Assembly (NCBI RefSeq): GCF_015169395.1
Contig: NZ_CP063458.1
Coordinates: 5,704,001-5,768,000, forward strand
Source: Humisphaera borealis
GTDB lineage: Bacteria; Planctomycetota; Phycisphaerae; Tepidisphaerales; Tepidisphaeraceae
Length of the DNA: 64,000 nucleotides
Direction: 5' to 3'
The translations under genes were made by a program, and so were the position numbers. Below are positions 11,512-40,316 of the stretch, piece by piece (position 1 is the stretch's first letter; the number at the start of each line of letters is the position of its first letter). The notes beneath the pieces are model-generated. The model worked only from the letters and a program-made list of their open reading frames with translations. It had not been told where the DNA came from and made no database searches.

Positions 11512-12388
11512 GGAAATTAACCAACTCGTTTATCTGGTCGCGATCGCCGAAGAGGCCAGTTTCTCTCGCGCCGCCGAGCGATTGGGCGTCGCCCAGCCGT
11601 CGATCAGCCAGCAGGTGAAGAAGCTGGAGGACGAACTGGGTACCCCGTTGCTCGACCGCCTGCCCCGACGCGTCGTTCCGACGGCGGCAGGGGAAAAGCT
11701 GCTGGAACACGCCCGGCGGATACTCGCCGAACTGTCCGACGCCCGCCGAAGGCTGTCAGACTCGGCCACCACAGTGTCGGGTTCGCTCAAGATCGGCGCG
11801 ATTCCCACCATCGCGCCCTACCTGCTTCCCGATGTCCTCAAGCACTTCGCCAGCAAACACCCCCATGTGCATGTCGATGTCGTTGAGGATGTGACCGCCC
11901 GCCTGGCTTCGCTCGCCGAGCAGGGGGAACTCGACCTGGCGATCCTTTCCACGCTCGAAGGGGGCCCCACGTTGCACGTCGAGACCATTGGCCACGAGGC
12001 GCTGCACCTCCTGCTGCCCAAAGCCCACCGTCTGGCCAAACGAAAAAGCGTTCCCTGGTCGGACCTGACCGAAGAGCGGTTCCTGGTGCTGCACGAAATG
12101 CACTGCCTCTCGGGACAGGTGGCGCACGTCTGCCAGCGGCGCAAGGTCCGGCCGAACGTGGTGATGCGGGGTGCACAACTGAGCACCATCGCGGAAATGG
12201 TGTCGGCCGGGATCGGCGTAAGCGTGGTGCCGGCGATGATGGCCGACCACGACAAAAACCCCGGGCGATTGACCCTGCCATTTGCCGGCGAAGCACCCAC
12301 GCGGGAAATTTGCCTGGCCTGGAGCCTGCTCCGTTACCGAACCCAGGCAGCTAGGGCGATGGAACAGACGATTCGGCAGCGGCTATGA
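11510..12388 (+). CDS. oxyR: OxyR-like LysR-family redox regulator
   Basis: This is a LysR-type transcription factor, probably a hydrogen-peroxide sensor. The N-terminal winged helix (MEINQLVYLVAIAEEASFSR, AAERLGVAQPSISQQVKKLE) is followed by a substrate-binding-like domain. Two cysteines fall at residues 199 and 208 in HCLSGQVAHVC, the same numbering and spacing as the redox-active C199/C208 pair of E. coli OxyR, which supports OxyR rather than a generic LysR. The 292-residue length is normal. It is divergent from rarA, with a 96-base spacer carrying a possible OxyR site. No catalase or peroxiredoxin gene is adjacent. Confidence 0.88.
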   Translation: MEINQLVYLVAIAEEASFSRAAERLGVAQPSISQQVKKLEDELGTPLLDRLPRRVVPTAAGEKLLEHARRILAELSDARRRLSDSATTVSGSLKIGAIPTIAPYLLPDVLKHFASKHPHVHVDVVEDVTARLASLAEQGELDLAILSTLEGGPTLHVETIGHEALHLLLPKAHRLAKRKSVPWSDLTEERFLVLHEMHCLSGQVAHVCQRRKVRPNVVMRGAQLSTIAEMVSAGIGVSVVPAMMADHDKNPGRLTLPFAGEAPTREICLAWSLLRYRTQAARAMEQTIRQRL

Positions 12389-12447
12389 AGTTCGGATCGA
12401 CGGGCGGTTGTCACCGATCGGCCCATCGTCGCAAGGCCCTCTTACGC

Positions 12448-12478
12448 AAAAACCCTCGCCCGAGAGGACGAGGGTTTT
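12448..12478. terminator. Bidirectional terminator between oxyR and tRNA-Ala
   Basis: AAAACCCTCG at 12449-12458 pairs with CGAGGGTTTT at 12469-12478 over a 10-base loop. There is a T run on the + strand for oxyR and an A run whose complement serves the tRNA on the minus strand. Confidence 0.8.
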
Positions 12479-12487
12479 CTGTCACCA

Positions 12488-12560
12488 TGGAGCGTACCGG
12501 GATCGAACCGGTAACCTCCGCGTTGCAAACGCGGCGCTCTCCCAATTGAGCTAACGCCCC
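12488..12560 (-). tRNA. tRNA-Ala (TGC)
   Basis: On the minus strand the 73-base sequence folds as a cloverleaf. The GGGGCGT acceptor pairs with ACGCTCC with one G-T, the D-arm is TAGCTCAATTGGGAGAGC, and the anticodon stem CGCGT/ACGCG, after GCC, frames loop TTGCAAC. The T-arm contains GGTTCGATCC. CCA is not encoded. Confidence 0.95.
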
Positions 12561-12713
12561 TCCAGTCCGGGCATTCTAGGGTTTGCGACGAAACCTTCAA
12601 CTGCCCGAAGACGCAGGATTGTCGGCACTCGGCAAGAAACTCAGCGCCGTGCCATCTTCCACTGTACTATCGACGCATTGGCGATACGCTCCGTTCGACA
12701 CCTGGAGGATTCC

Positions 12714-14195
12714 ATGGCTATCCGATCGCTTCTTTTGGCTTCACTGCTTCTGTGCACGACGGTCGCCGCGGCCAACCCGTCTTACCGTCTGGACCTTCGC
12801 ACCCGTGCGCCGGTCGGCGGAGTTGGTGGCCTGATCGAGGTGGTCGAGAAGCCCGCCGAGTGGGCCCCGTCGGAAACAGCGCTGGTCATCTGCGACATGT
12901 GGGATACCCACTGGTGCAAGAGTGCATCGGAGCGAACCGCGCTGGTCGCACCACGGATCGACAAGCTGGCAAAGTCCATGCGAGCGAACGGGTCGCTGAT
13001 CATCCATGCCCCCAGTGACACGATGAAGTTCTACGCCGAAGCTCCCGGCCGAAGACTCGCGATCGCCGCCCCGAAGGTCGAGCCGCCGAGCCCGCCCAAC
13101 CGCACCGGCGGGCCTGCTCTCCCGATCGATGACAAAGACAACGGCTGCGACGACCTTCCCCAGTGCGTCATCCCCAACGGCAAGACGATTCCGTATCCGT
13201 GGAAGCGGCAGATCTCGACGATCGAAATCGCCGACACCGACCCCATCACCGACAACGGCCAGGAGGTCTACAACCTCCTCAAGCAGCGGGGCATCAAGCA
13301 CCTTCTCGTGTGCGGCGTTCATACGAACATGTGCATCCTGCATCGATCGTTCGCGATCAAGCAGATGACGCGGTGGGGCATCGATTGCGCCCTGGTCCGC
13401 GACTGCACCGATGCGATGTACAACCCGCGTCGGGCACCGTTCGTCAGCCATGCCTGCGGTACGGGGATGGTCATTGAGTACATCGAGCAGTTCTGGTGTC
13501 CTTCGATCCTGAGCACACAGATCCTCGCCGACGCCAAGCCGACGAAAGTACTGCTCATCTCGGCCGAGCAGGAGTATGGTGCCAAGGAAACCCTGCCTGC
13601 CTTTGCAAAAGAAGTCCTCGAACCGCTCGGCTACGCAACCCAGCACATCAACAGCGACGACGTGAAGAGCATTGCCGGCCTGGACGCATTGAAAGACGCC
13701 GACGTGCTGGTGCTGTTCCTGCGTCGTCGCGAACTGCCCGAGGATCAGTTGGCGAAGTTCAAAGCCTGGTTCGAAGCCGGCAAGCCCGTGGTCGCGCTGC
13801 GAACGGCCTCGCATGGGTTCCAGACTTACCTGGAGTTCGACAAGCAGGTGCTCGGCGGAAGCTACACCAACCATTACGGCAAGGGCGGGATCACGAAGAT
13901 CACGATCGACGAGAAGGCCAAGGACCACCCGATCCTGCGCGGCGTAAAGGGCCCCTTCGAATCGAACGGATCGCTGTACAAGGTCAATCCCCTGGGACCC
14001 AACACAACGCCGCTGCTGACGGGCACGTTCCAGGACAAGCCGCCGGAGCCGGTGGCCTGGACGAACACGTATAAAGGCGGCCGGATCTTTTACACCTCGC
14101 TCGGGCATGCCGACGACTTCAAGTTGCCGCAGTTCCGCACACTGCTGAGCAACGCCATCCAATGGGCCGCGGACAAGCCCGTGACCGTCAAGTAG
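12714..14195 (+). CDS. Exported isochorismatase-like hydrolase fused to a ThuA-like domain
   Basis: This is a two-domain exported protein. A signal peptide (MAIRSLLLASLLLCTTVAAA) is followed by a cysteine-hydrolase domain (about residues 20-265). That domain has ALVICDMWDTHWC carrying the catalytic Asp and CGVHTNMC carrying the nucleophile Cys. The C-terminal part (about 275-490) looks like a ThuA/trehalose-utilisation fold: VLLISAEQEYG at the start, DADVLVLFLRRRELPEDQLAKF, GKPVVALRTASHGF and a late GGRIFYTSLGHADDF. The start at 12714 has GGAGG six bases ahead; 12678 would spoil the signal peptide. ThuA domains are frequent in planctomycete sugar metabolism. The substrate is unknown. The next gene is an altronate-dehydratase relative. 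Confidence 0.85.
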   Translation: MAIRSLLLASLLLCTTVAAANPSYRLDLRTRAPVGGVGGLIEVVEKPAEWAPSETALVICDMWDTHWCKSASERTALVAPRIDKLAKSMRANGSLIIHAPSDTMKFYAEAPGRRLAIAAPKVEPPSPPNRTGGPALPIDDKDNGCDDLPQCVIPNGKTIPYPWKRQISTIEIADTDPITDNGQEVYNLLKQRGIKHLLVCGVHTNMCILHRSFAIKQMTRWGIDCALVRDCTDAMYNPRRAPFVSHACGTGMVIEYIEQFWCPSILSTQILADAKPTKVLLISAEQEYGAKETLPAFAKEVLEPLGYATQHINSDDVKSIAGLDALKDADVLVLFLRRRELPEDQLAKFKAWFEAGKPVVALRTASHGFQTYLEFDKQVLGGSYTNHYGKGGITKITIDEKAKDHPILRGVKGPFESNGSLYKVNPLGPNTTPLLTGTFQDKPPEPVAWTNTYKGGRIFYTSLGHADDFKLPQFRTLLSNAIQWAADKPVTVK

Positions 14196-14229
14196 GCGGG
14201 TCAAACTCGGCGCTCCCGAGAGACGTGGA

Positions 14230-14369
14230 GGACAGACATTCTTGTCTGTCACTCGGGACCAAGCGGCCGTTCGAGCGTCAGCCGACTTCTTTGATTCGTC
14301 GCAAGTCGAGGGCGGATCCGTGTTCGAAGACTCGGCTTGGTCCGCCTCGACTGACAAGAATGTCCGTCC
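14230..14369. repeat. Imperfect 34-bp inverted repeat (GACATTCTTGTC type)
   Basis: Arms 14230-14263 and 14336-14369 are similar reverse complements sharing GACATTCTTGTC and GGACCAAG. The right arm runs to within eight bases of the ATG of the next gene. It belongs to the same class as the other spacer palindromes. Confidence 0.7.
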
Positions 14370-14377
14370 CCAATGAC

Positions 14378-15877
14378 ATGCCCGATTTCCTCCGTATCCA
14401 TCTTCGAGACAACGTCGCCGTCGCGCTGTCGGAATTGCCGCAGGGATCTGCAGTGCTCGGGATCGTCACCAACGCGGTGATTCCGCGCGGGCACAAGGTG
14501 GCGTTGAAGGATCTTGCAGCGGGCGAGCATGTCATCAAGTACGGCCACCCCATTGGCCGGGCCATGCGCCACATTGCCGCAGGCGAACTCGTTCATTCGC
14601 ACAATCTGACGAGCGACCTCGCCGGCTCTGTCGGCAATGCAGACTTTAGCGCACCAATCACTTCGGCGATCAACAACCCGCCGGCGACGCCCCGTACCTT
14701 CGACGGCTTCCGCCGCCACGACGGCGGCGTCGGTATCCGCAACGAAGTCTGGATCATCAACACCGTCGCGTGTGTGAACCGCGCCAGCGAGCAGATTGCC
14801 CGCGCTGCCAACGCTCGCTACTGCAGCTACAAAACTTGCGACGGCGTCTTTTCCTTTACCCATCCGTTCGGCTGCGCCCAGCTTGGCGACGACCTGCTCT
14901 ACACCCAGAAGGTCCTTGCCGGCCTGATTCGCCATCCCAATGCCGCCGCGGTGCTGATCCTCGGCCTTGGTTGCGAAAACAACCAGATGAAGCTGCTGCT
15001 GGAGCAGGTCGGCAGCGTCAACGCCGATCGGGTGAAGTACTTCAACGCGCAGGACGTCGCCGACGAGATCGAGTCCGGACTCGACATCGCCGCGAACCTG
15101 GTCGAATGGGCCTGTCAGTTCAAACGGGAGCCGATCGATGCGCGGGAGTTGATCGTCGGCCTCAAGTGTGGCGGCAGCGACGGGCTGAGCGGCATCACCG
15201 CCAACCCGCTGGTCGGCCGCGTCGCCGATCGACACTGTGCCCGGGGCGGAACGGCGTTGCTGACCGAAGTCCCGGAGATGTTCGGCGCCGAGCAGGTGCT
15301 GCTCGAGCGATGCAGCAGTCGACGAACGATCGACGACACGCTGACGATGGTCAACGGCTTCCGTGACTACTTTCGCCGCTACAACCAGCCGATCGACGAG
15401 AACCCGTCGCCGGGGAACAAGGACGGCGGCATCACCACGCTAGCCGAGAAATCGCTCGGCTGCGTGCAGAAGGCCGGGTCGTCACCGATCGTCGATGTGC
15501 TTCCCTACGGCATGCCTGCGAAACCGGGCCGCAGGGGCGTGGCGCTGGTGAACGCCCCCGGCAACGACGGCGTTTCCAGCACCGCAATGACCGTTGCCGG
15601 TGCCCACCTGCTGCTGTTCACCACCGGCCGGGGAACACCGCTGGGAATGCCGGTGCCGACGATCAAAGTCTCCAGTAACACCGCACTGCGCGATCGCAAG
15701 CCGAGCTGGATCGATTTTGACGCCGGTGCCATGCTCGCCGACGGCGCCTCGGCCGACGACCTGGCCGAGCAGCTCTACGATCTGTGCCTCGATGTCGCCA
15801 GCGGTAAACGCGAAGCACGGAACGAGATCAGCGGCAACCGCGAGATCGCGATCTGGAAAGACGGCGTCACGCTGTAG
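14378..15877 (+). CDS. UxaA-family (altronate/galactarate dehydratase-like) hydrolyase
   Basis: This is a lyase of the UxaA/GarD family, which dehydrates sugar acids such as D-altronate to a 2-keto-3-deoxy acid. The single chain holds an N-terminal SAF domain (IHLRDNVAVAL ... GHKVALKDLAAGEHVIKYGHPIGRA) and the C-terminal catalytic part. The latter shows GFRRHDGGVGIRNEVWI, HPFGCAQLGDD, LGLGCENNQ and LKCGGSDGLSGITANP, all family hallmarks. The start at 14378 avoids translating the inverted repeat; ATG 14360 lies in its right arm. The substrate cannot be fixed from sequence. The product would feed a KDG/KDPG route, and a KDPG aldolase occurs 44 kb away. Confidence 0.9.
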   Translation: MPDFLRIHLRDNVAVALSELPQGSAVLGIVTNAVIPRGHKVALKDLAAGEHVIKYGHPIGRAMRHIAAGELVHSHNLTSDLAGSVGNADFSAPITSAINNPPATPRTFDGFRRHDGGVGIRNEVWIINTVACVNRASEQIARAANARYCSYKTCDGVFSFTHPFGCAQLGDDLLYTQKVLAGLIRHPNAAAVLILGLGCENNQMKLLLEQVGSVNADRVKYFNAQDVADEIESGLDIAANLVEWACQFKREPIDARELIVGLKCGGSDGLSGITANPLVGRVADRHCARGGTALLTEVPEMFGAEQVLLERCSSRRTIDDTLTMVNGFRDYFRRYNQPIDENPSPGNKDGGITTLAEKSLGCVQKAGSSPIVDVLPYGMPAKPGRRGVALVNAPGNDGVSSTAMTVAGAHLLLFTTGRGTPLGMPVPTIKVSSNTALRDRKPSWIDFDAGAMLADGASADDLAEQLYDLCLDVASGKREARNEISGNREIAIWKDGVTL

Positions 15878-15889
15878 TCGGTCCACCCG

Positions 15890-16234
15890 CTAAACAGTTG
15901 TCTCGTTCTTCGCGCGTCTCCGATTCTTCCCCTTCGACTGCCTCTTCGTGTCGTCGCCGACGAGCGTCCCCAGGCCGACGACGAACATCGCGATCCCCAG
16001 GCCTAGCGCCACCCAGCTTCGCACGCCGGAAAGTGTGAAAAGGCCCAGGACGGCGAGCAGGCCACCCGAAATCCAAAGCGTCCAACCGACGATCGATTCC
16101 CGCTTCGACTTGGCCGATTCTGCGGATGCCGGAGTCGCCGGTTTGAACTCCAGGAGGTCGCTGCCGCATCGCGGGCAGTACATCGCCTGCTCAGGCACTG
16201 GCGTCGAACACTCGGGGCAGGCGTAGTCGGACAT
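15890..16234 (-). CDS. Zinc-ribbon membrane protein, unknown role
   Basis: This small protein starts MSDYACPECSTPVPEQAMYCPRCG, a double CxxC zinc ribbon. Two membrane helices follow (WTLWISGGLLAVLGLFTL and VALGLGIAMFVVGLGTLVG), then a basic tail (KRQSKGKNRRRAK). The layout resembles zinc-ribbon membrane proteins of unknown function common in bacteria. The start at 16234 is preferred to 16249, as the cysteine ribbon usually begins within a few residues. It overlaps no other gene and is convergent with the UxaA-like gene. I infer a cytoplasmic ribbon and a membrane anchor. Confidence 0.75.
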   Translation of the reverse strand: MSDYACPECSTPVPEQAMYCPRCGSDLLEFKPATPASAESAKSKRESIVGWTLWISGGLLAVLGLFTLSGVRSWVALGLGIAMFVVGLGTLVGDDTKRQSKGKNRRRAKNETTV

Positions 16235-16285
16235 GTGGAGCCCTCGCACGGGTCGGGTTCGGGGTCGGGATCAGGGGTCGAGACA

Positions 16286-16525
16286 TCAGGCCGACTCGTC
16301 CAGGTCGATCAGCGGCTCACCGGGATAAATCGCCGCACCCTCGGCGACAAGAAGCCGCCGTACGTGGCCGCTGCAATCGGCTTCTAGCTCGCCGCAGGCT
16401 TTGTCTGTCTCGATGTCTGCAATCACCTGCCCTTTGAGGATGTACTCGCCTTCCTTCACCCGCCATCTCGAAAGGATAAACGGGCCGCCTTGGAGCAACA
16501 TTGGAGTGGAAATCGTCCTAGCCAT
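16286..16525 (-). CDS. Stand-alone lipoyl/biotinyl domain protein (79 aa)
   Basis: The whole protein is one lipoyl-type beta-barrel domain: MARTISTPMLLQGGPFILSR, then VKEGEYILKGQVIADIETDKA with the modifiable lysine in ETDKA, then GHVRRLLVAEGAAIYPGEPLIDL. This matches the N-terminal lipoyl domain of 2-oxoacid dehydrogenase E2 subunits, but no catalytic domain, E1 or E3 gene is nearby. It could serve as a carrier for another complex or be a remnant. A TATACT-like box sits 12 bases before the ATG with little room for a leader, and no clear Shine-Dalgarno is seen. Confidence 0.75.
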   Translation of the reverse strand: MARTISTPMLLQGGPFILSRWRVKEGEYILKGQVIADIETDKACGELEADCSGHVRRLLVAEGAAIYPGEPLIDLDESA

Positions 16526-16654
16526 TTCTTGGTTTAGTATAACCGGCTCCGGCCTTCCGCCGCATTTGCTTGGAGGACTTGTCCGGCACCGTTACTATCC
16601 GAAGGGAAGCCCGGTTCGTCTGGGCGATACCGCATCTCGCTCCGGAGGAACCCC

Positions 16655-17587
16655 ATGCTCACTCGTCGCAACCTGCTCAAGTTCGCCGCCCTTTCGGCCG
16701 CCGGCACGGCCCTGGGCTGCTCAACCAGCACCACGTCCGCCGACCCGGTCGCGAAGGACAAGGTCAAAGCCCCGTTGTTCAAGATCTCGCTCGCCGAGTG
16801 GTCCTTCCACGTCGCGATGCTTAAGGACAAGTCGATGGACCACCTCGACTTCGCCAAGGTTGCCCGCACCGAGTTTGACATCGACGGCGTCGAGTACGTC
16901 AACCAGATGTTCATGGACAAGGCCACCAACCAAGCCTATCTCGCCGACATGAAGAAGCGTGCCGACGATCATGGCGTACGCAGCGTACTGATCATGTGCG
17001 ATCGGGAAGGCGACCTCGGCGACCCCGACGAGGCCAAGCGCAAACTTGCCGTTGAAAACCACCACAAGTGGGCCGACGCTGCGAAGTTTCTCGGCTGCCA
17101 CTCGATCCGCGTGAACGCCAAGAGCAAGGGGAGCTACGACGAGCAGAGCAAGCTCGCCGCCGACGGCCTGGCACGGCTCAGCGATTACTGCGCCAAGCTG
17201 GACCTTAACTGCATCGTCGAGAACCACGGCGGTCTCTCGAGCAATGGCGAATGGCTCGCCAAGACCATCAAGGCGACCGGCAAGAAGAACTGCGGCACAC
17301 TCCCCGATTTCGGCAATTTCAAGGTCTCCCCGACCGAAGAATACGACCGCTACAAGGGCGTGACGGAGCTCATGCCCTTCGCCAAAGGCGTCAGCGCCAA
17401 AAGCCATGAGTTCGACGCGCAGGGCAACGAGACCAAAACCGATTACATCAAGATGATGAAAATCGTCCTCGGTGCCGGCTACCACAGCTACGTCGGCATC
17501 GAGTACGAAGGAACCAAGCTCGCAGAGCGCGACGGCATCAAGGCCACGCTCAACTTGCTCAAGCGCGTGCGGGAGCAGTTGGCGTAA
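16655..17587 (+). CDS. Exported sugar phosphate isomerase/epimerase-like TIM-barrel lipoprotein
   Basis: This is an AP-endonuclease-2-like TIM-barrel protein of the family that includes xylose isomerase-like and inositol-catabolic epimerases. The N-terminus, [22 protein letters not shown], combines a twin-arginine-like motif and a lipobox (ALGC), so it is probably exported and lipid-anchored. The barrel shows [39 protein letters not shown] and SYVGIEYEG, typical of this family. A good GGAGG lies before ATG 16655. Such exported isomerase-like proteins are numerous in planctomycetes; the substrate is not predictable. A short terminator hairpin follows. Confidence 0.88.
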
Positions 17588-22608: not shown

Positions 22609-23874
22609 ATGGCCCAACGGCACTCGCGCGATAACAACTCGTCATCCACCCAGTCCGGCGGATTCGGCTCCTTCATCGTACTGCTGGTGGTGGCGGCGCT
22701 GGGCGCCGCGATCGTGATCGCCCGGCCCTGGACGTGGGGTCAGACCGCCGCCAACCCCACCACCAAGCCCGCCGGCGAAGAAGAAGGCATCAAGGCCTGC
22801 TGCCTCAAGATGCCCGACCACTTCACGCATTCTGATAATGGCGGCCCTCCGGGCATGGTCTGGATTCCCGGCGGCACTTTCGCCATGGGCGACTCCCGCG
22901 GCGACGGGTTTGAGTGGGAACGCCCGGTCCACCCCGTCACCATCGACGGCTTCTACATGGACATCTACGAGGTCACCAACGCCCAGTGGCAGGCATTCGT
23001 CGATGCGACGGGTTTCGTCACGACGGCCGAGAAAGTGCCGGACCTGCGCGAGATCATGAAGCAGCTCCCGCCCGGCACGCCGCCCCCGCCCAAGGACAGT
23101 CTCAAGGCCGGTTCGCTGGTGTTCCGCAAGACGCGCGGCCCCGTGCCGACCGATGGTTCCAACTGGTTCCAGTGGTGGGAATTTGTCGGCGGTGCCAACT
23201 GGCAGCACCCGACCGGCCCCGGGTCTGACATCAAGGGCAAAGAGTACTACCCTGTCGTCCACATCTGTTGGGACGACGCCGTCGCGTACTGCAAATGGGC
23301 CGGCAAGCGCCTGCCGACCGAAGCCGAATGGGAGTTCGCCGCACGAGGCGGGCTCGACAAGAAGCCTTACACCTGGGGCGATGACCCCTTCGACCCGAAG
23401 AAGTCCCACGCGAACATCTGGCAGGGCAAGTTCCCGTACGAAAACAGCCTGGAGGACGGCTACGACACTGCCGCCCCCGTCGGCCAGTACAAGCCCAACA
23501 ACTACGGCCTGTACGACATGGCGGGCAACGTCTGGGAATGGGCCAGCGACTGGTTCAGCCCGTTGACCTACGGCGAACAGGCCGCCGGCGGAAAGACGGC
23601 CGTCAACCCGCAGGGCCCCGACCAAAGCGTCGACCCCGACGGCGCGGGCGTGCCCAAGCGATCGATCCGCGGCGGATCGTTCCTGTGCAGCGATTCGTAT
23701 TGCTCCTCGTACCGACCCAGTGCGCGAATGCACACCAGCCCCGACTCCGGCACCAATCACCAGGGGCTTCGCACCGTCATGACCAAGGCGCAGTGGGAAG
23801 AGGCCAAGGCCAAACGCCTCGCCACAACCCGTCCGACGTCGGCCGCCGTGCCCGCGACTTCACCGTCGAAGTAA
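22609..23874 (+). CDS. FGE-type (SUMF1/EgtB-like) formylglycine-generating enzyme
   Basis: This is probably the enzyme that oxidises a sulfatase Cys (or Ser) to formylglycine. A membrane anchor (FIVLLVVAALGAAIVIA, about residues 24-40) precedes the catalytic domain, which begins MVWIPGGTFAMGDS. It then shows DIYEVTNAQWQAFVDATGF, GKRLPTEAEWEFAARGG and DMAGNVWEWASDW. The C-terminal RGGSFLCSDSYC carries two cysteines (about residues 360 and 365), spaced as in the copper/disulfide active site of human FGE, so it is not one of the many inactive relatives. The anchor suggests it acts outside the cytoplasm. No sulfatase gene is in the window. Confidence 0.9.
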   Translation: MAQRHSRDNNSSSTQSGGFGSFIVLLVVAALGAAIVIARPWTWGQTAANPTTKPAGEEEGIKACCLKMPDHFTHSDNGGPPGMVWIPGGTFAMGDSRGDGFEWERPVHPVTIDGFYMDIYEVTNAQWQAFVDATGFVTTAEKVPDLREIMKQLPPGTPPPPKDSLKAGSLVFRKTRGPVPTDGSNWFQWWEFVGGANWQHPTGPGSDIKGKEYYPVVHICWDDAVAYCKWAGKRLPTEAEWEFAARGGLDKKPYTWGDDPFDPKKSHANIWQGKFPYENSLEDGYDTAAPVGQYKPNNYGLYDMAGNVWEWASDWFSPLTYGEQAAGGKTAVNPQGPDQSVDPDGAGVPKRSIRGGSFLCSDSYCSSYRPSARMHTSPDSGTNHQGLRTVMTKAQWEEAKAKRLATTRPTSAAVPATSPSK

Positions 23875-37248: not shown

Positions 37249-40242
37249 TCAGTTCACGTACGCGATCTCGTTGGCAAACAACAGCGCCTGGGCATACTGC
37301 TCCCAGATGGTCAGTGGCTTGCGTTCAACGGTCTCGCCAGTGTTCTGAATCGCGCCCTTGGCACCAATCGGCTTGGCCGCGTCGGCCTTGGCACGCTCGT
37401 CGGCCTTGGCCTGGCTCTTGGTCTTCTCGGCGGGCGGCTTGCCCTTATTCCCGGCCGCACGCTGCGCCAGGATGTGCGTGTTGTAGAACTCCGCCGCCAG
37501 CGACACTTCGACCGGCCGGGCGTTGCGCTGGTAAATCACCTCGTACATCGCACGCACGCGGGCATAGTCGTCGCCGGCCTTGAGGAACTCGGGACGACTG
37601 CACACCTTGCGGGCCACGTCGGCCGACATCGGGCTGTTCATGAAGAACAACGCCTGCTGCGGCACGATCGTCGTCGCCCGCTTGCTGTTGGGGCGGTTCG
37701 GGTCGGCGTAGTCGAACTCCGACAGCAGTTCCGGCAGGTTGCCACGGTCCACGTAGCCATAGACGCTGCGGCGGTTGCTGTAGGGCTCGTCGGTCAGGTT
37801 GACCGGCTTGCCGCCGATGGTGCGATCCAGCTTCCCGCTGAACTGCAGCATCGTGTCGCGGATCGCCTCGAAGTCGAGCCGACGGAGATTGGCCCGCCAG
37901 AGCAGGCGGTTGTCGGGGTCTTTCTGCGTGTAGGTCGGGTTGTTGTCGCTCGCCTGCTGCCAGGTGCTGGACATCAGGATCGTCTTGTGGAGCTTCTTAA
38001 GGCTCCAGCCGTCGGCGACGAACCGCGACGCGAGGTAGTCGAGCAGTTCCGGATGGCTCGGCAGTTCCGATTGCACGCCCAGGTCATCGGGCGTGCGGAC
38101 GAACCCTTCGCCGAAATGACGCAGCCAGACACGGTTCACCAGCACGCGCGCCGTCAGCGGGTTGTCCTTGCTGGCGATCGCCTTGGCGAGTTCCAGCCGG
38201 CCGCTGCCCTGCTTGAAGGGCTGGCGTTCGCCGGTCGTGAGCATCTGAAGGAACTGCCGCGGAACCACCTTGCCCTTGTTGTTCGCTTCGCCACGAATCA
38301 GGATCGGCGAGTCCTGCGGGGTCGCCAGATCGGCGACCACCATCGCACGACCCGGGCCGCCGGCGTGGGTCAGTTCCAGCGTATTGATCTCATTGAAGAT
38401 GAACCGGCCGTAAGCCGTTTCGCCTAGCTTCAGGGTGCCGAAGATTTCGCGCAGGTGGGCATCGGTCATCACCGAGGCGGGCTCGATCTTCAGCGGCACC
38501 TCAATCAGTTGAATCAGGTCGGCGTCGTAGCCGGTCACCGGGCCGCTCGTCGCTTTGCGGTTGGCCTCGATGTACGCCTTGGCCTGCGGGCGGATCGACG
38601 CCAGCAGCTTGCCGTAAACATTGGCGACGTCGTCAATGCTCTTGAGCGAGCTCGGCGAAACGCCCTTGAACGCCGCCACCACCCGGCGGTTCAGCGTTAC
38701 CTTCGTTCCGCCGCCTTCGGCGATGCGATCCAGCACGTCCTTGACGGCTTCGGCGTACCGTTCCTGGCCGAGCTCGGCGAACCATCGGAACGGGGCAAAA
38801 ACCGGGTCGTCCCGCTTGTCGGCCGGGATCGCATTGAGCAACTGCCCGTTGCCGCGGCTCGAAAGCGTGAACTCCTTCACCGTCTTCTGCTTGGCGGCCG
38901 GGTCGCGGAACTGCCCGCGGGAATAGAGCGACGTCAGGATGTAGCCCGCCGCCTTGGGCAGCACCTCGGCCGACGTCTCTTCCAGCACGTCGTAATAGAT
39001 GTCGCGGTTCTTTTTGGCCAGCTCCGCCATCTTCGCGTCAAAGTCCTTCTTGGCGGCCGACGTCGGCGCGGCGCCGACCAACGGCTTTTCGTCCGGCTCT
39101 TCGATGCTGTTGAACACGCCGTGCAGCGAGTAGTAGTCGGCGGTCGGGATCGGGTCGAACTTGTGATCGTGGCAGCGGGCGCACGAGACGGTGATTGCCA
39201 TCGTCGACTTGGTGACCGCGTCGATGCGCTCGTCGATCGTGTCCTGCTTGTTGGCGAACCGCTTGCCGACCGTCAGGAATCCCAGCGCCGCGAGCGAGTC
39301 GGGCTTCTTGGCCGCATCGGGGAGCAGGTCGGCGGCGATCTGCTCGGTCAGGAACTGGTCGTACGGCTTGTCTTCGTTGATCGCCTTGATGACCCAGTCG
39401 CGGTACGTCCAGGCGTAGGCAAAGCGGTAGTCTTCCTTGCGGTTGTTTTCGGTGAAGCCGGTCGTGTCGGAATATCGGGCCGAGTCCAGCCAGAATCGAC
39501 CCCAGCGCTCGCCATAGTGCGGGCTGGCCAGCAGACGATCCACCAGCCGCTCGTACGCGTCCGGCCGGCGATCCATCACAAACGCCTTCACTTCTTCCGG
39601 CGTCGGGGGTAGCCCGATCAGGTCATAACTGACCCGGCGGATCAGCACTTCGCGGGCAGCAGGCAGCGACGGCTTCATGCCGTTCTGTTCGAGCTTCGCC
39701 AGGATGAACGCATCGACAGGATTCTTGATCCACCCCTGCGTCGCGGTCTTGGGCTGCGGAACCGGCGGCTCCTTCACCGGCTGATACGCCCAGTGGCTGC
39801 GGGCCTTGGCGGTCAGTCCGGTCATCTTGCCCGCACCGGCAACTCGCGGGTCGGGCGCGCCCATCTTCACCCACGCCGTCAGGTCGGCGATCTCCTGGTC
39901 GGACAGCTTCTGGCCCTTCGGCGGCATCTGAACGTTGGCGTCGGTGTAGCTGACGGCCTTGATGAGCAGGCTGTTTTCCGCGTCGCCGGGGACGAGCGCC
40001 GGGCCCGTATCGCCGCCGGTCTTCCAGCCGTCGCGTGAGTCGAGCACCAGGCTGCCGCGGCTTTTGCCCTGCGCCGCGCTGTGGCAGTCGTAGCACTTGG
40101 CCGTAAGCAGGGGGCGGATCTTGGCTTCAAAGAACTGGGTCTGCTCGGCCGTCAATGCCGGCGCCGCCACGGGCGCGTCGGCGGCGAAGGCACCGGCCGT
40201 TCCGGAAAGCAGGATCGCAGCGAGTAGTTTGCGGATGTTCAT
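37249..40242 (-). CDS. Exported DUF1549/DUF1553 protein with cytochrome-like CxxCH motif
   Basis: This large (997-residue) exported protein has a signal peptide (MNIRKLLAAILLSGTAGAFA) and an N-terminal cytochrome-c-like planctomycete domain. That domain has KCYDCHSAAQGKSRG with the haem-binding CxxCH and a later MPP methionine. DUF1549 (KNPVDAFILAKLEQNG ... RYSDTTGFTENNRKEDY, part quoted) and DUF1553 (NPLTARVLVNRVWLRHFGEG) follow. The family is nearly confined to planctomycetes and verrucomicrobia; its chemistry is not established. The upstream gene on the same strand, 74 bases away, encodes its usual DUF1501 partner. The ATG at 40242 is used; the TTG at 40251 is less likely. Confidence 0.94.
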   Translation of the reverse strand: MNIRKLLAAILLSGTAGAFAADAPVAAPALTAEQTQFFEAKIRPLLTAKCYDCHSAAQGKSRGSLVLDSRDGWKTGGDTGPALVPGDAENSLLIKAVSYTDANVQMPPKGQKLSDQEIADLTAWVKMGAPDPRVAGAGKMTGLTAKARSHWAYQPVKEPPVPQPKTATQGWIKNPVDAFILAKLEQNGMKPSLPAAREVLIRRVSYDLIGLPPTPEEVKAFVMDRRPDAYERLVDRLLASPHYGERWGRFWLDSARYSDTTGFTENNRKEDYRFAYAWTYRDWVIKAINEDKPYDQFLTEQIAADLLPDAAKKPDSLAALGFLTVGKRFANKQDTIDERIDAVTKSTMAITVSCARCHDHKFDPIPTADYYSLHGVFNSIEEPDEKPLVGAAPTSAAKKDFDAKMAELAKKNRDIYYDVLEETSAEVLPKAAGYILTSLYSRGQFRDPAAKQKTVKEFTLSSRGNGQLLNAIPADKRDDPVFAPFRWFAELGQERYAEAVKDVLDRIAEGGGTKVTLNRRVVAAFKGVSPSSLKSIDDVANVYGKLLASIRPQAKAYIEANRKATSGPVTGYDADLIQLIEVPLKIEPASVMTDAHLREIFGTLKLGETAYGRFIFNEINTLELTHAGGPGRAMVVADLATPQDSPILIRGEANNKGKVVPRQFLQMLTTGERQPFKQGSGRLELAKAIASKDNPLTARVLVNRVWLRHFGEGFVRTPDDLGVQSELPSHPELLDYLASRFVADGWSLKKLHKTILMSSTWQQASDNNPTYTQKDPDNRLLWRANLRRLDFEAIRDTMLQFSGKLDRTIGGKPVNLTDEPYSNRRSVYGYVDRGNLPELLSEFDYADPNRPNSKRATTIVPQQALFFMNSPMSADVARKVCSRPEFLKAGDDYARVRAMYEVIYQRNARPVEVSLAAEFYNTHILAQRAAGNKGKPPAEKTKSQAKADERAKADAAKPIGAKGAIQNTGETVERKPLTIWEQYAQALLFANEIAYVN

Positions 40243-40316
40243 GGGCGTCAAACCAACGGACAGACTTCACGGCACAGGAACGTACGGGTTGCGGTTGCGG
40301 ACAAAGATCCAGGTTC

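Follow-up and report, generated by a model that had tools for sequence, protein, structure and literature searches.

The fusion of an isochorismatase-like hydrolase (IHL) domain to a ThuA-like domain, found here in the Humisphaera borealis protein P0001, occurs in a minority of Planctomycetota genomes, yet it is the commonest architecture among the IHL loci examined. P0001 thus appears to be an uncharacterised example of a protein type already known, which recurs in the phylum, and not a rarity. The best explanation of the evidence as a whole, which we hold tentatively, is an exported two-domain hydrolase for an oxidised sugar derivative. That the protein is exported and has a role linked to sugar oxidation seems fairly probable; that it hydrolyses such a derivative in a Cys-dependent manner is a possibility to be held loosely. 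The gene lies in a 64,000-nucleotide stretch of DNA (contig NZ_CP063458.1, positions 5,704,001 to 5,768,000), the whole of which is called the window below.

Architecture and predicted structure of P0001

Pfam, AlphaFold2 modeling, and fold comparison agree with a sequence-only reading of this DNA, which had described a single chain with two folds and an export-signal-like start (Table 1). Isochorismatase (PF00857) scores 43.7 bits against a membership cut-off of 27 over residues 183–235, and ThuA (PF06283) scores 87.2 bits against 33.4 over residues 278–485. The AlphaFold2 model, built on 25 aligned fusion proteins, has a mean pLDDT of 89.1 and a pTM of 0.66; because of the latter value, the relative placement of the domains in the model is unsure. 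The sequence-only reading would have failed had the C-terminal part not folded as ThuA; it does fold as ThuA: in VIA-align comparisons, residues 274–493 superpose on the ThuA-like structure 4e5v_A with Z 22.4 (215 aligned, rmsd 2.7), and residues 24–273 superpose on RutB (8blm_D) with Z 19.0 (182 aligned, rmsd 2.9). ThuA-like and IHL structures were also among the top-ranked Foldseek hits of the model, where the alignments to TrtA, BiuH, and RutB had rmsd values of approximately 8–10.

Residues 1–20 resemble a Sec signal peptide, and P0001 is probably exported; the mean pLDDT of residues 11–20 is 54. A hydrophobicity test for signal peptides, weak and applied to mechanically chosen starts, was positive for 34 of 48 fused and 24 of 34 unfused IHL proteins. 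A tRNA-Ala (TGC) gene lies at 12488–12560 (−), between a LysR gene and the fusion gene and on the strand opposite to the latter.

Table 1. Features in and around the fusion gene (window coordinates).
Feature	Position	Strand	Basis and remarks
IHL-ThuA fusion gene (P0001)	12714..14195	+	493 aa; start ATG 12714, stop 14195; ORF, Pfam, AlphaFold2 model, fold comparison
GGAGG, ribosome-binding-site-like	12704..12708	+	Sequence; 5 bases 5′ of ATG 12714
Signal-peptide-like N-terminus	12714..12773	+	About residues 1–20; read from sequence
Isochorismatase-like hydrolase (IHL) domain	12777..13529	+	Residues 22–272; Pfam, fold comparison, alignment
ThuA-like domain	13530..14192	+	Residues 273–493; Pfam, fold comparison, alignment
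Dispersed inverted-repeat (REPIN/MITE-like) element	14225..14375	.	Arms 14230–14264 and 14335–14369
Galactarate/altronate dehydratase-family gene (P0002)	14360..15877	+	Start probably 14378; Pfam, NCBIfam

Distribution and recurrence of the fusion

IHL-domain matches at E ≤ 1e-30 were found in 57 of 392 genomes of the phylum, or 38 of 267 genera. Whole P0001 matched 6 of 26 family genomes at E ≤ 1e-40, five via the IHL domain and one (G414) via ThuA alone; the IHL matches among these 26 were in the window genome (G000), G394, G406, G411, and G412. A contig scan added five IHL loci, from Verrucomicrobia (fused), Armatimonadota, Poribacteria, Chloroflexi, and Sumerlaeota, the last cut by a contig end. 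Altogether, 82 distinct IHL loci, window included, comprise 47 with the order IHL-ThuA, one with the reversed order ThuA-IHL (L099), and 34 without ThuA in frame, two of which (L015 and L050) are cut by contig ends. Eleven match rows of the 392-genome search fall outside these loci; their open frames of 182–336 aa are too short for them to be fusions. By tally, 43 of the 392 genomes carry fused loci, as do G406, G411, and the contig from Verrucomicrobia. The two folds in one chain had been called uncommon, a description that does not survive a count of 48 fused loci among 82.

Among the titles and abstract openings surveyed, a scope that leaves out most subscription papers and the domain-architecture databases, none described an IHL-ThuA fusion, and the terms "isochorismatase" and "ThuA" came together in an unrelated safety study alone; the fusion may be listed elsewhere. 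In the loci of genus code g79 (L068, L073, and L119–L125), an extension of approximately 153–154 aa follows IHL-ThuA, and that of L068, the one scanned from this set, gave no further Pfam match.

Phylogenies of the separate domains suggest that the fusion was gained or lost several times. In quick searches without bootstraps, which do not distinguish gains from losses, the IHL tree (63 domains) requires eight changes of the fused label, at least four of them forced by starred branches, and the ThuA tree (55 domains) requires six, at least two of them forced, with long branches flagged in the latter (L128, L006, and L173). The reversed protein looks like a separate fusion, as its ThuA domain is grouped with those of just three other proteins, none of which has an IHL domain (SH-aLRT 99). 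The IHL domain of the window protein clusters with members that are unfused or reversed (SH-aLRT 92, not starred), and its ThuA domain with that of the G406 fused protein (SH-aLRT 90, not starred). If the fusion was indeed gained or lost repeatedly, the two domains probably function together. At one locus (L181), IHL and ThuA-DUF7133 are encoded by separate genes, close together but on opposite strands.

Conserved residues of the two domains

Twelve positions are identical in all 63 aligned IHL sequences: Asp61, Trp63, His98, Tyr107, Arg113, Asp176, His203, Cys207, Arg211, Asp230, Thr232, and Asp233. The catalytic Asp and Cys of canonical D-K-C cysteine hydrolases are thereby present as Asp61 and Cys207. 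The Lys of this triad stands 33 residues before the Cys in TrtA (D24-K129-C162), according to passages of PMC7948467, and in MhIHL (D13-K78-C111), according to passages of PMC5353710; the latter also give PhzD as D38-K122-G155, with Gly in place of Cys at the nucleophile position and Lys 33 residues before it. In the IHL subgroup, this Lys is not conserved: just 1 of 63 sequences has Lys at position 174 (33 residues before Cys207), and at the sequence level, each column between His98 and Cys207 contains Lys in at most 26 of 63. Arg or Lys occupies position 165 in 49 of 63.

An hhalign comparison with 19 ordinary IHLs, drawn from 30 candidate loci, places the triad Lys site near residue 140 of P0001, as against 174 by spacing from the Cys, and Lys is unconserved there too; in the 19 ordinary IHLs, Lys is present by selection, since the pattern used to choose them required Lys 33 residues before Cys. 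P0001 itself has Lys at 141 and 164, either of which may play a role in the window protein alone. As the lysine of D-K-C is unconserved, the usual IHL mechanism may not apply. By analogy with V157-T158 of TrtA (parts of PMC7948467), V202-H203 is where a non-proline cis-peptide of the active site would be expected.

These residues bear on whether the IHL domain could be an ordinary amidohydrolase (ureide, biuret, or nicotinamide type) that releases ammonia extracellularly from a nitrogen compound, with ThuA aiding binding only. Amide breakdown is possible from the predicted fold, the high-scoring IHL structures being RutB (Z 19.0), TrtA (18.6), and BiuH (17.7), and Cys-bearing IHL enzymes are described as hydrolases of amide or ureide bonds in sections of PMC7948467 and PMC5353710. 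One fused gene (L056) also has an Amidohydro_2 gene 111 bases upstream. However, the NCBIfam scores of P0001 fall far under the cut-offs for BiuH (20 of 370) and RutB (12.7 of 377.95), the subgroup has no conserved triad lysine, and none of the 20 neighbour proteins scanned received a ureide, biuret, or pyrimidine name. We consider this alternative unlikely, and prefer a hydrolase for an oxidised sugar derivative.

We know of no settled reaction for ThuA proteins. The ThuA domain of P0001 carries Arg363-Thr-Ala-Ser-His367 where five of the eight other ThuA proteins of the window genome included in the comparison have His (L005–L008 and L009/L010, the last two being one protein). The Arg type is shared with L002, L003, and L004 of the window genome and with L049 of G414. 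Across the window genome, PF06283 gives 16 match rows in 15 frames, among which the His and Arg motifs distinguish at least two types.

A second alternative, in our view also improbable, makes ThuA the real catalyst, which would handle 3-keto sugars as the Thu pathway does, with the IHL domain as partner or regulator. ThuAB is a major trehalose catabolic route in Sinorhizobium according to portions of PMC3518184, and a passage of PMC12022489 ascribes a presumed carbohydrate-binding role to a ThuA-like domain of PelA. Kindred ThuA proteins without an IHL domain exist, and one related ThuA (L173) is fused to a 3-keto-disaccharide hydrolase domain (DUF1080), which passages of PMC9007349 place in 3-ketotrehalose hydrolase and a proposed 3′-ketolactose hydrolase, but also in an endo-xanthanase. 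Conservation points the other way, with 36 invariant columns in the IHL part of the 25 aligned fusion proteins against 21 in the ThuA part. Moreover, the IHL domain stands without ThuA in frame at 34 of 82 loci (two of them truncated), and the His of most compared ThuA proteins is Arg in P0001. This balance leaves the IHL domain as the favoured catalytic unit of the proposed hydrolase.

Genomic context and proposed role

The gene downstream had been described as a sugar-acid dehydratase relative, and P0002 does belong to the galactarate/altronate dehydratase family, with Pfam GD_AH and SAF domains above cut-off; its score against the galactarate dehydratase equivalog TIGR03248 is 292 of the 730.85 bits required. 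Its ATG at 14360 sits in the right arm of the repeat element, and the next ATG, at 14378, is the likelier start, because matches in relatives begin at residues 4–11. The two genes lie on the same strand, 164 bases apart, and a dehydratase related to sugar-acid chemistry would suit a single two-step sugar-acid pathway, the pairing put forward by the sequence-only reading. We regard such a pathway as very improbable. A tblastn search with the dehydratase against 127 loci matched the window's own locus alone (present twice, as L001 and L016), although the downstream side is absent from the two nearest family loci (L085 and L086), whose contigs end at or just after the fusion gene. At E ≤ 1e-100, the dehydratase is found in 5 of 41 relatives (G000, G392, G396, G413, and G416), with no match in G411 or G406, so that at the thresholds used the window genome alone has both genes, several of the genomes being incomplete.

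The two genes are further separated by the repeat element, which is 151 bases long with 35-nt arms that are 80% complementary. It has 25 match rows in the window genome, 16 of which form eight opposite-strand pairs spanning approximately 120–216 bases, and it has matches in 5 of 41 relatives, among them G000, G396, and G406. The lack of pairing elsewhere, the co-occurrence in one genome, and the intervening repeat leave an operon of fusion and dehydratase unsupported. A promoter and terminator scan of 12380–16660 gave no more hits than in shuffles. Also in the window are a xylose-isomerase-like TIM-barrel gene (PF01261; 16655–17587, +), downstream of P0002 on the same strand with a weak, sub-cut-off TAT-signal match, an FGE-sulfatase-like gene (22609–23874, +), and a gene for a DUF1549/DUF1553 planctomycete cytochrome c protein (37249–40251, −).

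Domains fused to IHL or IHL-ThuA in some relatives are of a kind associated with sugar oxidation, and it is from these that a sugar-oxidation role is drawn. At one locus (L096), a PQQ dehydrogenase precedes the IHL domain in one chain (PF01011, E 2.4e-206); its best NCBIfam PQQ model is of the glucose/quinate/shikimate type, with a score below cut-off. Three proteins (L091, L093, and L094) join IHL-ThuA to DUF7133, HEAT, and cytochrome c in a single chain, and L095, cut by a contig end, has IHL-ThuA with DUF7133; NCBIfam names L091 and L094, the two scanned, as PVC-type haem-binding proteins. IHL-ThuA is joined to a propeller of the SGL/gluconolactonase family in L076 and L067, and NCBIfam named no lactonase for that of L076. 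Other IHL chains include a sulfatase (L117), URO-D (L014), and an acetyl-xylan-esterase-like region just below cut-off (L079). Oxidation modules occur in a minority of IHL proteins, and the window protein has none.

ThuA-less IHL genes lie 4–13 bases from, or overlap, a GFO/IDH/MocA gene at the four loci scanned (L012, L013, L087, and L117) of a seven-locus cluster; L012, L013, and L087 have no clear signal peptide by a crude hydrophobicity test. The other scanned neighbours of fused genes are mixed (LysR, an LpoB-like protein, YchF GTPase, an MFS transporter, an amidohydrolase, a beta-lactamase fold, a sulfatase, a kinase, and a phosphatase), and a search for a conserved fusion neighbourhood by crude ORF clustering yielded mainly clusters confined to close relatives. 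Because the genes adjacent to the fusion differ between genomes, they fix no single pathway. An 11-locus ORF cluster that appeared as a neighbour gene is apparently the antisense shadow of the fusion gene itself, and an N-terminal domain of unknown kind in L168 and L169 was dismissed, as the sequences look like overlong frames before a signal-like start. Close to the fusion in G283 and G321 (L020/L097 and L021/L098) are LysR genes with 33–39% identity to the one found upstream of it in the window; LysR genes being common, this recurrence was not counted as evidence.

GFO/IDH/MocA, sulfatase, and haem modules are abundant in Planctomycetota. The partner modules point, not strongly, to sugar oxidation outside the cytoplasm, and the sugar-related setting proposed for the fusion was right.

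For P0001, we infer an extracytoplasmic location, hydrolysis by Cys207, an oxidised-sugar substrate, and a division of labour between the domains. The exported protein, with its two Rossmann-like domains, would have as substrate a small sugar derivative that arises from sugar oxidation, and would act on it outside the cytoplasm. The IHL domain would be the catalytic unit, with Cys207 as the nucleophile towards a lactone, ester, or amide carbonyl and Asp61 as acid/base, and the invariant arginines and histidines would hold a polar, probably anionic, substrate. The Arg-type ThuA domain may bind or further convert the sugar part. A bolder version, which we think unlikely to hold in full, is that a planctomycete-centred IHL lineage without the triad Lys was recruited to extracytoplasmic sugar oxidation by repeated fusion to Arg-type ThuA, giving rise to a hitherto unrecognised class of enzymes for the hydrolysis of an oxidised-sugar intermediate (a lactone or 3-keto-sugar enol ether) supplied by PQQ or haem dehydrogenases.

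P0001 remains of experimental interest because its subgroup lacks a conserved triad lysine and the fusion has probably recurred. A ThuA domain that was probably fused more than once to a cysteine-hydrolase-like domain, in some relatives with sugar-oxidising modules, offers a concrete, testable partner chemistry for ThuA, and the fusion may help explain sugar processing outside the cell in Planctomycetota.

Among known systems, RutB, TrtA, and BiuH resemble P0001 in fold (Z 17.7–19.0), in the Asp that ends the first strand, and in the Cys that follows a G-V-x-T type motif. P0001 differs from all three in having an export-signal-like start and in belonging to a subgroup with no conserved triad lysine, and from RutB and BiuH in falling below their equivalog cut-offs (12.7 of 377.95 and 20 of 370 bits, respectively). 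The isochorismatases PhzD and EntB share the fold (Z 16.3 and 16.0). EntB lacks the nucleophile Cys. In PhzD, the nucleophile site is Gly in the parts of PMC5353710 that describe it, whereas the P0001 group has Cys in 63 of 63 sequences. The ThuA-like structures 4e5v, 1t0b, 4jqs, and 4pxy likewise share the fold of the C-terminal domain (Z 20.8–22.4), but P0001 has Arg-Thr-Ala-Ser-His in place of the His motif of ThuA and ThuA-like proteins and is fused to an IHL domain. The PVC-type haem-binding CxxCH proteins (TIGR02604/TIGR02603) include relatives that run IHL-ThuA-DUF7133-HEAT-cytochrome c in a single chain, unlike P0001, which consists of IHL and ThuA only.
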